Shown here: positions 5,293 to 58,170 of the stretch, piece after piece | Numbering within the stretch: the stretch's first letter is position 1 | Layout: each line of letters opens with the position of its first letter | Assembly: GCA_017549205.1 (NCBI GenBank) | Contig: JAFYVH010000009.1 | Span: forward strand, 1 to 64,000 | Reading direction: 5' to 3' | DNA from: Clostridia bacterium | Lineage (GTDB): Bacteria; Bacillota; Clostridia; UBA1381; UBA9506 | DNA: 64,000 bases | Program-made: the position numbers and the translations under genes | The notes under the pieces: generated by a model | What the model was told of the DNA's origin: nothing | The model's database searches: none | Seen by the model: only the letters and a program-made list of their open reading frames with translations

Positions 5293-5339
5293 AAGTGTAA
5301 ATTATCAATACTAAATAAAAAATGAAAAGGAAGATGGAA

Positions 5340-6359
5340 ATGAGCCAATCGAAACGAAGGGGAAAACAAACGATTTTTTTTGAAAAACAACCGGTAATAT
5401 TAGGAACAGGTACAGTGGCAGGCAAAAAAGAAAGTGAGGGTCCCATCGCTTCTTATTTTGATGTGATTGCAAAAGATAATGTTTTAGGGCAAAATACATG
5501 GGAAAAGGCAGAAAGCGAATTTGCCAAAAGAGCAGGACAGGAGGCTTTTAAAAACAGCGGAATTTCGGCAGAACAAATTAAATATTTATTTGGTGGTGAT
5601 TTGCTTAATCAATGCACGGGAACAAGCTACGGCATTCGTGATTTTGGTATTCCGTTCATTGGCCTTTATGGCGCCTGTTCAACCATGGCATTAAGTCTTT
5701 CCATGGCAGCAAGCTTTATTGATGGTGGCTATGCTGATTATTGTGCTGCCGTTACTTCCAGCCATTTTTGTTCAGCAGAAAAGCAGTTTCGTTTTCCGTT
5801 GGAATATGGTGGACAGCGTCCACCCAGTGCCCAATGGACAGTAACCGGCTCAGCCTGCGCCGTTTTGGGCGAGTCAGGAGAGGGACCCCGGGTTGAATGT
5901 ATCACCACGGGCAAAATTGTGGATATGGGCATCACCGATGCCAACAATATGGGCGCTGCTATGGCACCTGCCGCTGGTGACACCATTTTGACTCATTTTA
6001 AAGATACAAACCGTGACCCGTCATATTATGATTTAATTGTTACAGGCGACTTGGGCTTTGTGGGTCACTCTGTTGTCATTGACTTTCTCTCTGAATCGGG
6101 CTATGACATGACAAACAATTATAATGATTGCGGGCTCATCATCTTTGACCGCAAAAAACAAGACACTCATGCAGGAGGCAGTGGTTGTGCCTGTGCAGGA
6201 TTAACCTTTTGCGGCTACCTTTATAAACAGCTTTTAGAAAGAAAAATCAACAAGCTGCTTTTTGTGGCAACAGGTGCACTGCAGAGCACTTTAAGTGTGC
6301 AACAAGGTGAAACCATGCCGGGCATTGCCCATGCAGTCAGCATCATAAATCCATCTTAA
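5340..6359 (+). CDS. spoVAD: Stage V sporulation protein AD
   Basis: The ATG at 5340 follows AAAAGGAAG and gives 339 residues (338 in B. subtilis); an ATG at 5322 overlaps that ribosome site. SpoVAD has a thiolase-like fold and binds dipicolinic acid for its uptake into the forespore. Family features are IASYFDVIAKDNVLGQNTWEKAE, the conserved GLYGACSTMALSLSMAA, VTSSHFCSAEKQFRFPLEYG and TVTGSACAVL. In most spore formers spoVAD sits between spoVAC and spoVAE; here both are absent and the neighbours are folT and spoIIP. It runs tail to tail into spoIIP with a one-base gap. With dpaA/dpaB it belongs to the dipicolinate pathway of the spore core. Confidence 0.95.
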   Translation: MSQSKRRGKQTIFFEKQPVILGTGTVAGKKESEGPIASYFDVIAKDNVLGQNTWEKAESEFAKRAGQEAFKNSGISAEQIKYLFGGDLLNQCTGTSYGIRDFGIPFIGLYGACSTMALSLSMAASFIDGGYADYCAAVTSSHFCSAEKQFRFPLEYGGQRPPSAQWTVTGSACAVLGESGEGPRVECITTGKIVDMGITDANNMGAAMAPAAGDTILTHFKDTNRDPSYYDLIVTGDLGFVGHSVVIDFLSESGYDMTNNYNDCGLIIFDRKKQDTHAGGSGCACAGLTFCGYLYKQLLERKINKLLFVATGALQSTLSVQQGETMPGIAHAVSIINPS

Positions 6360-6360
6360 A

Positions 6361-7455
6361 TCACCCTTTTCCGTGCTGAATCAGCATACTGGCAACAGCC
6401 TCTCCCACAAGCCGTCCGGCATTTTTTGCTTCGGCCAGCGTATTGACACCGGTGCCCACTTCAATAATCAATGACCCTTTTGTTGCATGCTGATTAAACC
6501 GTTCGGTCCGAAGATTAATCGAGCGACACAGTCCCGGTTGCTGATGATTCAATTCATTCTGGATTTTAACCGCAAAACTTAAATTATGGCGCCAATCGGG
6601 GTGGTACAGATTCATGTTATCTGTTCCCACTACAAACATGATTTGTGCTGCTTTTTCACCGTTTTTTAAGGTGATTGTTGGCTTTACCAATGTGCCGTCG
6701 TCTTTTTTCATATAATCCCGGTGGATATCCAAAATAACTTCAATAGTGGGGTGGGTGGTTAGATTTTTTTCGATTAAAGACATGGCTTTTTTATACGATT
6801 GATTGTATGACGGATAATCGTTTTGTGTGGTATCGTGAATGACTTCAATCCCTTCTTTTTTGAGTGCATCGGCAATTTCTTTGCCTACGCTGACCACATT
6901 CATTTTCGAATCTTCACTGCGGCTTTCGGGACTTTCAGCATATCCTTCAGATGTGTGGGTGTGTATAATGAGTACTCTTGGTCCGTTGTAGGGTGACGAA
7001 AATTTAAGCGGAGCATTTAAAAGGGTATCTGCATCAATATCATATCCCGGGCTGTTTATAAAGGACAGCCCTTTTGCCGAGACATCGGTCTCTAAAACAG
7101 GCCCCATATCATTTACATTTTTTATGGGTGAATTGATTTCTTTTTTTAAAACGCCGCCATATTTGGCGGCATATTTTTTACTCATTATGTATGAGGCACG
7201 AATGCTGGGAATAGACGAAGATAAAATATCATATGCCGAATATTGCCATGTCACTTTTTGCATTGTGCTAAAAGCCACAACGGCATTTTGCATGCTGTTT
7301 AAAACAAAGGACGCAGGCAGTTGCGGCAATGTAAAACCGGAACGTAGAATTAAGATGATAATTGTCATAAACATCGCTAAGTATATAAGCAAATGATTGA
7401 TGTGTTTACGAAGAGACAAAACTTGTCCAAAAAATCTTTTTCTGCTTCTTCTCAT
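6361..7455 (-). CDS. spoIIP: Stage II sporulation protein P (SpoIIP)
   Basis: The ATG at 7455 follows GGGAGG and gives 364 residues. SpoIIP is a membrane-anchored peptidoglycan amidase and endopeptidase that works with SpoIID and SpoIIM to drive engulfment. An N-terminal membrane span (LLIYLAMFMTIIILIL) is followed by a linker and the catalytic domain with VLIIHTHTSEGY, EVILDIHRDYM, MFVVGTDN and LIIEVGTGVNTLAEA. The gene has a good SigmaE-like promoter at 7487-7515, as expected for a mother-cell engulfment protein. No gpr gene lies beside it. It ends one base from spoVAD on the other strand. Confidence 0.94.
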   Translation of the reverse strand: MRRSRKRFFGQVLSLRKHINHLLIYLAMFMTIIILILRSGFTLPQLPASFVLNSMQNAVVAFSTMQKVTWQYSAYDILSSSIPSIRASYIMSKKYAAKYGGVLKKEINSPIKNVNDMGPVLETDVSAKGLSFINSPGYDIDADTLLNAPLKFSSPYNGPRVLIIHTHTSEGYAESPESRSEDSKMNVVSVGKEIADALKKEGIEVIHDTTQNDYPSYNQSYKKAMSLIEKNLTTHPTIEVILDIHRDYMKKDDGTLVKPTITLKNGEKAAQIMFVVGTDNMNLYHPDWRHNLSFAVKIQNELNHQQPGLCRSINLRTERFNQHATKGSLIIEVGTGVNTLAEAKNAGRLVGEAVASMLIQHGKG

Positions 7456-7486
7456 GTTAAAAATCCTCCCGTTATATTTTACTAAA

Positions 7487-7515
7487 AACCTATGCAATAA
7501 GCGGGCTAAATATGC
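7487..7515 (-). promoter_or_regulatory. SigmaE-type promoter of spoIIP
   Basis: On the minus strand GCATATT (7509-7515) fits the SigmaE -35 consensus KMATATW fully and CATAGGTT (7487-7494) is a fair -10, with 14 bp between. It acts as an internal standard for the recombinase promoter at 58194-58222. Confidence 0.7.
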
Positions 7516-42054: not shown

Positions 42055-42792
42055 TTAACAAGTCAAATCGCCCCATTCATAAAGCAAAACAGAAAGAGCA
42101 ACAAGTCCTGCTGTCTCTGTTCGTAAAATGCGAGGACCTAATGTTACACTTTGTGCACCTAACGCTTCTAAATGCACAACCTCTTCCGGTGCAAATCCAC
42201 CCTCGGGACCAATGAAAATACCAACTGAACCGGCCTTGTTTCCGGTTAATGCCTGTTTTATTGATTGAGAGCATTCCCCTTCATAAAGCAGTAACAAAAA
42301 TTCGGGCGTTATGTCTTTTGTTATGTCATAAAGCCTAATCGGCATGTGCACTTCAGGAATTTTGCCACGACTACACTGCTTGGCGGCAGCTTCGGCTGTT
42401 TTTTGCCACCGCTCCAGTTTTTTAACAGCTTGTTCGGCAGAAAGCTGCACAACGCTGCGCTCCATTTGCACAGGCACAATGGCATCGATGCCCATTTCGA
42501 CGCATTTTTCAATAATCCATTCCATTTTGCCCTGTTTCGGCAAACCCTGATAAAGCGTTACCTTGGTTTTAGGCTCATTAAGACAGGCAGCAGACCGCAA
42601 TAAATCCACATGTACTTCATCTCGATTAAAGGATGCGATGGTGGCTTCATAGTCTGTCCCTTCTCCATCGCAAATGGTAATGGAATCGCCAATATTTGCA
42701 CGCAAAACTTTAATAAGATGATTCACATCTGCACCTTTTATGACTGCATGCTTATTTGTTATCTGATTTTTACTAACAAAAAATTTTGACAT
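42055..42792 (-). CDS. rsmE: 16S rRNA (uracil-1498-N3)-methyltransferase
   Basis: The ATG at 42792 is eight bases behind GGAG; another ATG two codons earlier is too close. The 245-residue SPOUT enzyme has an N-terminal PUA-like domain (HLIKVLRANIGDSITICDGEGTDYEATI) and the knot with LLYEGECSQSI, IGPEGGFAPEEVVHLEALGAQ and LGPRILRTETAGLVALSVLLY. prmA, its common partner, is not present. Confidence 0.95.
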   Translation of the reverse strand: MSKFFVSKNQITNKHAVIKGADVNHLIKVLRANIGDSITICDGEGTDYEATIASFNRDEVHVDLLRSAACLNEPKTKVTLYQGLPKQGKMEWIIEKCVEMGIDAIVPVQMERSVVQLSAEQAVKKLERWQKTAEAAAKQCSRGKIPEVHMPIRLYDITKDITPEFLLLLYEGECSQSIKQALTGNKAGSVGIFIGPEGGFAPEEVVHLEALGAQSVTLGPRILRTETAGLVALSVLLYEWGDLTC

Positions 42793-42877
42793 AGGCATAA
42801 CTCCGACAATTCATTACTCACAGTATACCATTTTTTATCGTAAATGTCAAGGTATATCGGCACTTTGGGAAATTTAT

Positions 42878-43210
42878 TTACCTTTTATTACCCGCCAGAA
42901 ACAAATATCCCAATATGAGCAGCATAAAATAATCATCACAGTTATTTAATAATAAAATCAAAAGCACACCCAAAATCAAAAAGTCATCCTGATTGTTGAT
43001 AAGATTATTAAAAGGCGTTGTTTTTTCATTACAAACAGGCGTTGTTTCAACCGGTTCTTCGGCACGTTCTTCTGCATCCGGTTTGTACTCTTTTGGCGCC
43101 TGCGGAATAATAATTTCTGCCTCGTGATAAACAGGCGGACGATAGGGTTTGGGCTCTCGCTTTATGGGTGCTTTAAACTGATTGCTCGGATTATAATATT
43201 TCATTTCCAT
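42878..43210 (-). CDS. Small protein with Pro-rich body and hydrophobic Asn/Asp tail (module gene 3)
   Basis: I do not recognise a named family. The 110-residue protein starts after AAAGGATG. Residues 1-60 are Pro-, Glu- and Lys-rich and likely unstructured; residues 70-110 (NNQDDFLILGVLLILLLNNCD and DYFMLLILGYLFLAG) form two short hydrophobic runs split by acidic/Asn residues. Similar DDxLLILGLxLLLL tails are common in small clostridial proteins near sporulation genes, as I recall them. It is the third gene of a minus-strand cluster of small proteins. Confidence 0.75.
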   Translation of the reverse strand: MEMKYYNPSNQFKAPIKREPKPYRPPVYHEAEIIIPQAPKEYKPDAEERAEEPVETTPVCNEKTTPFNNLINNQDDFLILGVLLILLLNNCDDYFMLLILGYLFLAGNKR

Positions 43211-43249
43211 ATTTATCGCATCCTTTGCTGTAAAATTTATATTGGCGCA

Positions 43250-43618
43250 TTACAGCAGTTCTTTAAATAAATCCATTTCTTGTGCGGTTTTAGCAAGGCT
43301 TGATAACCGAAGAAATTTAATCATTTGGTCAATTTGCGGTCTGCGTTCTTCACTTAAAAAAGGTTTTATGGCATAAAGGAGGGCGCTGCGTTCATCCTTA
43401 TTTTGATTGTTTAGTTGTCCCATTAAGCTTTGCAGTTTTAATAACATGGCAGGATCAAAGGTGCCTATTGTGTCGTGGGTTTCTGTTTTTGGCTCTTCTT
43501 TTTTCTCTTCGCTGTTATTTTCTGTCAGCGCAGAAAGCATTTCACCTAATTTTTCTGTTGGGTTATCCCCTAACATGCCCATTATGTTTTCTAAAAGCTT
43601 GCTACCATCCTCTGCCAT
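43250..43618 (-). CDS. Small helical protein (module gene 2)
   Basis: The ATG at 43618 (12 bases behind GAAAGG) gives 122 residues; a TTG at 43630 sits on the ribosome site. The middle is acidic and low complexity (ENNSEEKKEEPKTE). The C-terminal part, ALLYAIKPFLSEERRPQIDQMIKFLRL, is a pattern I associate with uncharacterised clostridial proteins of the form LRPYLSEERRxRVDxAIKLLRL. No function is known. It lies between two other small genes behind one promoter. Confidence 0.75.
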   Translation of the reverse strand: MAEDGSKLLENIMGMLGDNPTEKLGEMLSALTENNSEEKKEEPKTETHDTIGTFDPAMLLKLQSLMGQLNNQNKDERSALLYAIKPFLSEERRPQIDQMIKFLRLSSLAKTAQEMDLFKELL

Positions 43619-43635
43619 AGCTTGTTCCAACCTTT

Positions 43636-43887
43636 CTATTGTTTTGGATTGATTTCATGAATTAAATCCGGATTTTTCTTTAAATTTTCAACCATATTCT
43701 CCACCTGTTCAATGCCGTCCAAATTCATTTTCTCTGCAACCTGCTTTATTTTTTGTGTATCTACCTGCTTTAATGCCTTTTTAATGCTTTCTTCGTCTTT
43801 TAATAGGCCGGATAAAGCATTTTTTTGTTTATCACTCAACTGATTAAACAGACTATTAATTTTTTGTGCTATTTTTTTATCGTTCAT
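43636..43887 (-). CDS. Small helical, charged protein (module gene 1)
   Basis: The ATG at 43887 follows AAAGGAG and gives 83 residues with no membrane segment or cysteine. It is all-helical in appearance (KIAQKINSLFNQLSDKQKNAL, SIKKALKQVDTQKIKQVAEKM). I do not recognise it. As first gene of the cluster it lies directly behind a SigmaE-like promoter, so the three genes may be made in the mother cell. Confidence 0.75.
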   Translation of the reverse strand: MNDKKIAQKINSLFNQLSDKQKNALSGLLKDEESIKKALKQVDTQKIKQVAEKMNLDGIEQVENMVENLKKNPDLIHEINPKQ

Positions 43888-43920
43888 AAACAATTCTCCT
43901 TTCTGTTTAGCTCCCCTATC

Positions 43921-43948
43921 AGTATATGATGCATCTTAAAAAACATGA
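43921..43948 (-). promoter_or_regulatory. SigmaE-like promoter of the three-gene small-protein cluster
   Basis: On the minus strand TCATGTT (43942-43948, one mismatch to KMATATW) and CATATACT (43921-43928, one mismatch to CATACANT) are 13 bp apart, 34 bp before the first start codon. Confidence 0.5.
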
Positions 43949-52389: not shown

Positions 52390-53172
52390 ATGAATGAATA
52401 TGATAAAAACAAGCCACGCCGGGAAAGATTTTCTGTAATCGGCGGTGACCAAAGAAGTCTTGTAACAGCAGAACAACTTTATAAATTTGGCTATGAAGTA
52501 ACCCTTTTTGGCTTTGATGACAAAGTTAAGTGTAATGAGACGCTGCATCGCGCAAAAACCCTTCAGGATGCCATACATTGTGCAGACAACATTATTCTTC
52601 CACTGCCCTGCTCAATTAACGGTAGCGATGTTAACACGCCGTTATATGACGGCACTATTTTATTACAGGATATTTTAGTGCATGTAAATAAAAAACAAAG
52701 AATTTTAGGCGGCAAACTGGATAAAGTTTTTTGTGCAGAATTAGAAACAAAGGGTATTTCTTATAACGACTATACTAAGCGTGAAGAATTTTCTGTTTTA
52801 AATGCCATTCCTACAGCAGAGGGCGCCATTGAGATCGCTCTGCATGAACTGCCGGTTACATTAAACGGCACCCATGCTCTGGTTATAGGTTTTGGGCGAA
52901 TTGGCAAAGCCTTGTCTGCTGCATTAAAGGGTATGGGAACAATCGTTACTGTCTCTGCAAGACGCCACAGCGACCTTGCATGGATTAAGTCCTATGGTTA
53001 CACACCATTATCCTACAATAACTTTAATGAACAACTTAATAAATTTCATGTTATATTCAACACAGTGCCCCAGCTTATATTAGACAGAAAAGCACTGCAA
53101 TCCATATCAAAAAATTGTTTGATTATTGACCTTGCCTCAATGCCCGGCGGGGCGGACGACACAATTGGATAA
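52390..53172 (+). CDS. dpaA: Dipicolinate synthase subunit A, 5' part of an interrupted gene
   Basis: DpaA (SpoVFA) with DpaB makes dipicolinic acid in the mother cell. This part starts after AAAGGAG and reads FSVIGGDQRSLVTAEQLYKFGYEVTLFG, VLNAIPTAEGAIEIAL, VIGFGRIGKALSAALKGMG (Rossmann loop) and IIDLASMPGG, in good colinearity with Bacillus SpoVFA. After residue 254 homology stops: the next codons ADDTIG run to a stop, where the family continues with V/TDF and a 45-residue tail. That tail is found at 58252-58395, 5.1 kb away, in front of dpaB. As it stands the product lacks the conserved LPG-x-VAP-x-TAG region and should be inactive. Confidence 0.95.
   Translation: MNEYDKNKPRRERFSVIGGDQRSLVTAEQLYKFGYEVTLFGFDDKVKCNETLHRAKTLQDAIHCADNIILPLPCSINGSDVNTPLYDGTILLQDILVHVNKKQRILGGKLDKVFCAELETKGISYNDYTKREEFSVLNAIPTAEGAIEIALHELPVTLNGTHALVIGFGRIGKALSAALKGMGTIVTVSARRHSDLAWIKSYGYTPLSYNNFNEQLNKFHVIFNTVPQLILDRKALQSISKNCLIIDLASMPGGADDTIG
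53143..53157. other. Left attachment site (attL) of the dpaA element
   Basis: The dpaA codons CCC GGC GGG GCG GAC surround the core GGGG (53149-53152). Left of it is dpaA; right of it the sequence no longer encodes DpaA. GCGGA at 53152-53156 would form half of a dyad in the excised circle. Confidence 0.7.
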
Positions 53173-56970: not shown

Positions 56971-58170
56971 TTACATTTTTTTCGGTTTGAAACTAATGAA
57001 TATTTCTTTGTTTTTATCTATGCAAATCTGTTTGATTTCGTGGAAATAAGGATTGATTATGCTGCTGTTTTCAATATAACAAATTTGATTTAACTTCTTC
57101 ATCACATACTTTTCGACAAACTCTTCACGAATGCAATGAGATGTGCACCGCCCCTGTCCTTTCCGCCACTTACTGCAAACGATGTAACAATGGTTGCCAC
57201 TATACATAAAACTCATTTTGCTGCCGCAATCAGCACAATAAACCACGCCGGATAAAAGATGATTTTCTTTACCTCTGTTTCTGTTATTATAATGCCTGTT
57301 CCCCAGCCTTTTTGCTGCCGTTTCAAATTCCCTTTGGCTTATAATGGCCTCGTGCGTACCCTCTACCGTAATCCATGTCTCTTTTGGCAGGGTAATCTTT
57401 TGATTGAGCTTATAATTAATTTTACGGCTTTTATTTTGCGTTAAATGTCCCGCATAAGTGGGACTGGATAATATACGCCGAATGGTTGTTGTGTTCCATT
57501 TGTTGTTTTTACTGCTTAGTGATGGAGTTTCAACGCCTTTTTCTGTCAGAGCTTGTGCAATCATGTTCATGCTCTCGCCCCTGTTATAACGGCGATATAT
57601 CTCTTGTACTATGAGAGCCTGACTTTCAACCGGCACTAATTTATTTTTATCAAAAGCTGATTTTTTGTATCCGTAAGGTGCTTTAGAGCCGATAAAACGA
57701 CCGTTTAGCTTTTTGGTTTGCAGGGCTGTTCTAACTTTTAAGCTTATATCTCGTGCATACATATCATTAAACACAGCACGAAAAGGCGAAAGGTCATTGC
57801 CAACACCTCCCGCTTCTGTATCTATGCCATCATTCACCGCAATATATCGCACACGATGCAGAGGGAAATATTGTTCTATGTAATAGCCGGTTTGAATGTA
57901 ATCTCGACCAAGACGCGACAAATCTTTGGTAATCACAACATTAACTTCTTTTCTTTCAATCATGGCCAAAAGCTTTAAAAAATCGGGTCTATGAAAGCTT
58001 GTACCGGAATAGCCGTCATCGGCTAAAATTGCAACCACGGTAAAGTTATGTTTTTTTGCATAAGCAAGCAAAAAATCTCTTTGATTGACAATGCTTTCCG
58101 ATTCTGCGCTTTTCTCATCATCCCGCGAAAGTCTTAAATATAGTGCTGCTTGATTTTTTATCCTCTCCAC
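56971..58170 (-). CDS. Serine recombinase of the dpaA element
   Basis: The 399-residue protein is a large-type serine recombinase. The catalytic domain holds ALYLRLSRDDEKSAES with the nucleophilic serine, DDGYSGTSFHRPDF and ITKDLSRLGRDYIQTG. The recombinase domain follows (KAPYGYKKSAFDKNKLV, IYRRYNRGESMNMIAQAL, TTTIRRILSSPTYAGHL), then a zinc ribbon (YCADCGSKMSFMY...CYIVCSKWRKGQGRC). It ends about 45 residues later, so the long coiled-coil tail of phage integrases (500-550 residues) is missing. Start GTG, with only a weak ribosome site GGGCG. It lies beside the 3' part of dpaA, transcribed away from it, as spoIVCA lies by sigK in skin. A SigmaE-like promoter precedes it. It most likely cuts out the element. 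Confidence 0.92.
   Translation of the reverse strand: MERIKNQAALYLRLSRDDEKSAESESIVNQRDFLLAYAKKHNFTVVAILADDGYSGTSFHRPDFLKLLAMIERKEVNVVITKDLSRLGRDYIQTGYYIEQYFPLHRVRYIAVNDGIDTEAGGVGNDLSPFRAVFNDMYARDISLKVRTALQTKKLNGRFIGSKAPYGYKKSAFDKNKLVPVESQALIVQEIYRRYNRGESMNMIAQALTEKGVETPSLSSKNNKWNTTTIRRILSSPTYAGHLTQNKSRKINYKLNQKITLPKETWITVEGTHEAIISQREFETAAKRLGNRHYNNRNRGKENHLLSGVVYCADCGSKMSFMYSGNHCYIVCSKWRKGQGRCTSHCIREEFVEKYVMKKLNQICYIENSSIINPYFHEIKQICIDKNKEIFISFKPKKM

Follow-up and report, generated by a model that had tools for sequence, protein, structure and literature searches.

Three small genes for proteins of no named family lie side by side in the genome of a Clostridia bacterium, and the question they raise is when these proteins are made and what they do. 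The locus was studied within a window of 64,000 nucleotides (contig JAFYVH010000009.1, positions 1 to 64,000), which is the whole stretch of DNA analysed. The first-pass annotation had described one unit of three genes encoding proteins of 83, 122 and 110 residues behind a SigmaE-like promoter, and considered a conserved, unnamed sporulation module possible. The three genes are present at these lengths, on the minus strand (which the annotation omitted). The features of the locus are:

43942-43948, minus strand: TCATGTT, a -35-like element (6/7 match to KMATATT), separated from the -10 box by 13 nt
43921-43928, minus strand: CATATACT, a putative mother-cell (SigmaE/SigmaK-type) -10 box (8/8 match to CATAYAMT)
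43896-43901, minus strand: AAGGAG, the predicted ribosome-binding site of P1, a good match read from the sequence
43636-43887, minus strand: P1, the first gene, an open reading frame for a charged, helical protein of 83 residues
43250-43618, minus strand: P2, 122 residues, with N-terminal helices, an acidic linker and a C-terminal helical hairpin bearing the signature LLxAIKPFLSxxRxxxID
42878-43210, minus strand: P3, 110 residues, with an N-terminal KYYNxSNxFxAPI motif, a Pro-rich linker and a short hydrophobic C-terminal helical hairpin, DDFLILGVLLILLL-NNCDD-YFMLLILGYLFL
42822-42850, minus strand: TTGACA-17-TATACT, resembling a sigma-70-type promoter (an 11/12 consensus match only), directly behind P3 and before rsmE
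42055-42798: rsmE, the gene behind P3

The promoter-like arrangement reported ahead of the first gene, TCATGTT followed after 13 nt by CATATACT, is found at 43948-43921 on the minus strand, and the -10 box begins 41 nt ahead of the P1 ATG. Both motifs singled out by the annotation are also present, KPFLSEERRPQIDQMIKFLRL within P2 and NNQDDFLILGVLLILLL within P3. The genes are separated by gaps of 17 nt (P1/P2) and 39 nt (P2/P3), which is compatible with a single transcription unit. The sigma-70-like site between P3 and rsmE suggests that rsmE is transcribed separately, probably starting from this site. When the genes were compared with those of relatives, codon position 2 differed least and position 3 most in 8/8 comparisons (in P2 against locus L003, for example, the differences at positions 1, 2 and 3 were 0.38, 0.18 and 0.53). 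This pattern indicates that the protein sequences are under selection and that the P1-P3 genes are coding.

The annotation had stated that the two motifs recur as pairs in other Clostridia, and the linkage of the genes is indeed kept across the order, the class sample and the named loci. A single-sequence search with P2 through 61 relatives in the order, own genome included, gave a match in 53. Of 31 loci of the order (L001 and L002 among them being one and the same place), all have both P2 and P3, and 30 have P1 ahead of P2, with the gene order unchanged. In 40 further loci, one per genome and drawn from many families, P2 has P3 as its neighbour in 37 (E up to 0.05) and is preceded by P1 in 28. 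Among 66 named loci, which overlap partly with the other genome samples, P2 was found in 65, P3 in 65, P1 in 35 and P2 together with P3 in 64. P1 is the fastest evolving of the trio, with no invariant column and weak conservation across the class. A homologous P2-P3 pair is present in Ruminococcus bromii YE282, and R. bromii has been shown to form spores according to the passages of PMC5814915 used here. One genome of the window's own family (G011) carries two P2-like genes (C55:11625-11903 and C64:605-991). Clustering of the outer open reading frames in the 40 loci gave no group common to more than seven, so the outer neighbours change between families and the trio moves as a unit of its own. 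A functional link to the flanking aminotransferase gene or to rsmE was rejected on the same count.

The DNA ahead of P1 was compared across modules. The sequence CATAYAMT, which we take to be the mother-cell -10 consensus, was chosen beforehand and was not fitted to the module data. Upstream regions of 56 distinct modules were compared with those of 395 other genes from the same loci, counting only loci in which P1 was found and identical upstream regions once. An exact CATAYAMT was present in 24/56 modules and 9/395 control genes (p 2e-17, from 56 promoters that include close relatives and so are not independent), and a match of at least 7/8 in 42/56 and 96/395, respectively. Controls matched for A+T content had the exact box in 6/274. 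SigmaA and SigmaF/G patterns showed no enrichment upstream of the modules, and a SigmaA or forespore (SigmaF/G) promoter was rejected for this reason. In the positive control, spoIVA, the box matched at 7/8 or better in 8 of 13 upstream regions and exactly in one, after 7 of the 20 regions had been left out because no start was found.

The -35 element is less uniform. In a set of 82 module upstream regions, 56 had a -10 box matching at least 7/8 and 26 did not; at the usual spacing, the 56 boxed regions carried a SigmaK-type AC element (18), ATA (7), AT (14) or none of these (17). Members of the window's own family mostly have an AT-type -35 and never AC. The pattern GTMA-N15-18 occurred in 17/56 modules and 0/395 controls, although it was framed after the promoter alignment had been viewed. 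In C. difficile, SigmaE and SigmaK share a common -10 box and differ in the -35 (ATA versus AC), as described in the passages of PMC3789822 drawn on here. Since the -10 box is common to both sigma factors and relatives have ATA/AT-type and AC-type -35 elements, "mother-cell type" is a safer description than "SigmaE". Thus, a promoter of SigmaE/SigmaK mother-cell type, as judged by sequence pattern, is strongly enriched ahead of the module, as the annotation's SigmaE-like reading would have it, with SigmaK as a further candidate.

A link with sporulation is further indicated by the distribution of P2. The module, mostly one per genome, is found in about half of the class-wide sample, uncultured gut lineages included. 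The P2 profile matched 124 of 255 class genomes, but one match (G234) is a frame with three stops in a genome with no spore marker and was removed as spurious. In the fourfold count, P2 and SpoIVA occurred together in 111 genomes, P2 only in 13, SpoIVA only in 70 and neither in 61 (Fisher p 9e-11). Of the 13 P2-only genomes, 10 have SpoIIIAH (the co-occurrence check proposed by the annotation) and 9 have Spo0A, with one or both in 11. Consequently SpoIVA, SpoIIIAH or Spo0A is present in 122 of the 123 genuine P2-positive class genomes; the remaining genome (G270, 82% complete) has P2 and none of the three. A wider profile (A5, E up to 1e-3) detected P2-like proteins in 16 of the 70 SpoIVA-only genomes and in 1 of the 61 with neither, and SpoIVA is present in two other genomes of the genus to which that one (G159, 78% complete) belongs. 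In a phylum sample, P2-like proteins were found in 22/249 genomes and SpoIVA in 211/249; 21 of the 22 carriers have SpoIVA, the other being G423 (80% complete). Within the order, SpoIVA is present in 59/61 genomes and SpoIIIAH in 57/61. The eight genomes of the order without a P2 match in the single-sequence search all have SpoIVA and include a 93% complete member of the same genus (G005) as well as G015 and G037; one 67% complete genome (G012) has P2 and neither SpoIVA nor SpoIIIAH.

These counts from the class, phylum and order samples mean that P2 implies sporulation genes but that the reverse does not hold. SpoIVA-positive class genomes without P2 number 70/181 by the first profile (A1) and 54/181 by both profiles, so sporulation works without detectable P2 in many lineages. 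The trio as a core part of all spore-formers was rejected, P2 being absent from those 54 genomes and from most of the phylum sample. In the class sample, the confinement of P2 to genomes with spore genes is a strong link with sporulation, and the presence of the module in non-spore-formers, which the annotation had named as contrary evidence, was not found there. Its reading is therefore supported, with the corrections that either SigmaE or SigmaK may be at work and that not every spore-former has the module.

The genome itself carries SpoIVA and SpoIIIAH, and the window encodes SpoVAD and SpoIIP, at 5322-6359 and 6361-7497, in adjoining genes of opposite strand. The same window holds, in two parts, a dpaA gene, which encodes dipicolinate synthase subunit A:

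52390-53172: N-terminal part of dpaA (PF16924)
56971-58170, minus strand: serine recombinase gene, adjoining the right junction of the dpaA insert
from about 58250: C-terminal coding remainder of dpaA
58392-58964: flavoprotein gene, probably dpaB

The approximately 5 kb between the two parts contain genes for a NAD synthase, a SulP-type transporter and the serine recombinase. The insert is a candidate for a developmentally excised element, similar to skin or vfbin. Known elements of this sort split sigK, spsM, spoVFB, gerE and yabG, and the passages of PMC10747680 and PMC5595907 relied on here do not mention dpaA among the split genes.

What the proteins might do must be read mainly from their own features, as family libraries offered little. 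P1-P3 gave no match above the curated cut-off in Pfam and NCBIfam, in keeping with the annotation's description of them as unnamed, and no meaningful match in PHROGs. Of 40 P2 members, no more than one matched any given Pfam family, and none of 37 P3 members matched one; sequence profiles of solved structures gave no meaningful match to P2 or P3. Scattered weak matches to helical proteins were dismissed because a common theme was absent. AlphaFold2 models were built from alignments of the window and named-locus proteins. The P2 model has a C-terminal hairpin (helices 74-87 and 93-114) with block pLDDT values of 94, 94 and 87 over residues 81-110, within a poor whole model (mean pLDDT 69, pTM 0.37). 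The P3 model has helices at 74-88 and 94-109 with a block pLDDT of 95 over residues 81-100, in a whole model of mean pLDDT 78 and pTM 0.36. Given the low pTM of both models, the hairpins alone are usable. A Foldseek search of the PDB with the P2 and P3 models returned nothing with E below 0.5 (best E 0.67). The hydrophobic runs of P3 are about 12 and 14 residues long and acidic residues ahead of them recur across the class, while the low-complexity linkers of P2 and P3 vary in length. A search of the open-access literature found no paper describing the trio, which is no proof of absence. We regard P1, P2 and P3 as families not described before that belong to a type of system already known.

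Variant proteins in other lineages bear on the relation between P2 and P3. In families missed by the first profile, the wider one picked up P2-like hairpins within longer proteins that gave as many as five domain hits each. By sequence reading, a P3-like segment stands at the end, after the P2 hairpin, in L170 and L182, and at the start, joined to a P2-like part, in L197. L172, L177 and L197, from other families, carry P2-like repeats together with hydrophobic segments at the N-terminus. These fusion and tandem-repeat relations come from small local searches (E about 1e-3 to 1e-12) and motif reading and are suggestive; the fusions, if right, imply that P2 and P3 act together. Proteins L222-L229, L232, L234, L235 and L239 are P2-like, 187 to 376 residues long, with 2 to 5 P2-profile domain hits each. 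For most of the long tandem-repeat proteins there is no clear -10 box; L228 and L229, both from one family, have CATATAAT as an exact match. Ten long P2-like proteins gave no meaningful match in Pfam or NCBIfam.

On the evidence of promoter and distribution, P1-P2-P3 is very probably a sporulation operon that would be switched on in the mother cell by SigmaE and/or SigmaK RNA polymerase. A tentative mechanism, possible though short of probable, would have P3 hold P2 and P1 at the forespore envelope. P3 would be a small membrane-surface anchor whose C-terminal hydrophobic helices, with runs too short to cross a membrane singly, dip as a hairpin into one leaflet. The target would most likely be the outer forespore membrane, on the side facing the mother cell, with the Pro-rich flexible part and conserved N-terminal motif of P3 extending into the mother-cell cytoplasm. 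P2 would bind P3 and serve as an adaptor through its C-terminal hairpin and N-terminal helices and, with the helical P1, would collect proteins of the coat, or of other parts of the spore envelope, on the forespore. We infer expression in the mother cell, contact between P2 and P3, insertion into the membrane, placement at the forespore and participation in coat assembly. The explanation as a whole, in which a mother-cell operon supplies a P3 anchor and a P2 adaptor that organise the spore envelope, is given a little less than an even chance.

Other readings share parts of the same evidence. P3 and P2 could be late structural proteins of the coat or crust, of the SigmaK class, that polymerise in the spore coat and have no part as a morphogenetic anchor. 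Low-complexity linkers of variable length, such as those of P2 and P3, are common in coat proteins, and the AC element at SigmaK spacing in 18 of the 56 boxed promoters points the same way. However, the window's own family never has this element, and a hydrophobic hairpin with conserved acidic residues, as in P3, would be unusual for a soluble coat protein; a purely structural role is thus considered unlikely. The pair of hydrophobic helices at the end of P3, linked by a conserved acidic turn, could instead suggest that P3 oligomers form a small pore or fusion aid in the forespore or mother-cell membranes, regulated by P1 and P2, and the N-terminal hydrophobic segments on some P2-like repeats would fit such a role. 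Engulfment, metabolite transfer or mother-cell lysis would be the processes served. This reading is improbable, because each P3 helix falls short of the length needed to cross a bilayer by itself and searches of Pfam, NCBIfam and PHROGs matched P3 to no known channel or holin.

It is also conceivable that the trio is a housekeeping or envelope module that tracks spore-formers merely through common ancestry. Many genes disappear when a lineage gives up sporulation, which keeps co-occurrence from counting as independent evidence, and the incomplete genome G270 has P2 with no marker found. Yet a spore marker accompanies P2 in every other genuine P2-positive class genome, and the promoter signal is independent of marker co-occurrence; shared ancestry is accordingly the most doubtful of these explanations.

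The anchor-and-adaptor reading has parallels in known systems. SpoVM is a 26-residue amphipathic helix of the outer forespore membrane and its partner is SpoIVA. P3 resembles SpoVM as a small, presumed mother-cell sporulation protein that is predicted to be membrane-associated and would recruit a soluble partner to the forespore, but its hydrophobic hairpin of two helices and its long linker set it apart, and the family libraries showed no sequence relation. SafA, SpoVID and SipL are coat-assembly adaptors, comparable to P2 in its proposed role between the forespore surface and the coat, whereas the trio lacks a LysM domain and any sequence relation to them in Pfam. The SigmaE and SigmaK regulons of C. 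difficile include genes of unknown function that are similar in promoter type and in encoding conserved hypothetical proteins, and the passages of PMC3789822 drawn on here name no homologue of the trio among them.

The list of spore-building genes is known mostly from Bacillus subtilis and C. difficile, and the trio would fill a gap in the account of how gut anaerobes make the spores that spread them. Forespore anchors other than SpoVM could exist. It is conceivable, though somewhat unlikely, that the trio is an undescribed spore-envelope scaffold of Clostridia, with P3 as leaflet hairpin anchor and P2 as adaptor, replaced elsewhere by P2-P3 fusions or membrane-tethered tandem P2 hairpins. If true, it would provide a second, independent means of tying coat to forespore wherever SpoVM is of little importance. 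A P2 hairpin next to a P3 hairpin may also serve as a sequence marker for spore-forming genomes.
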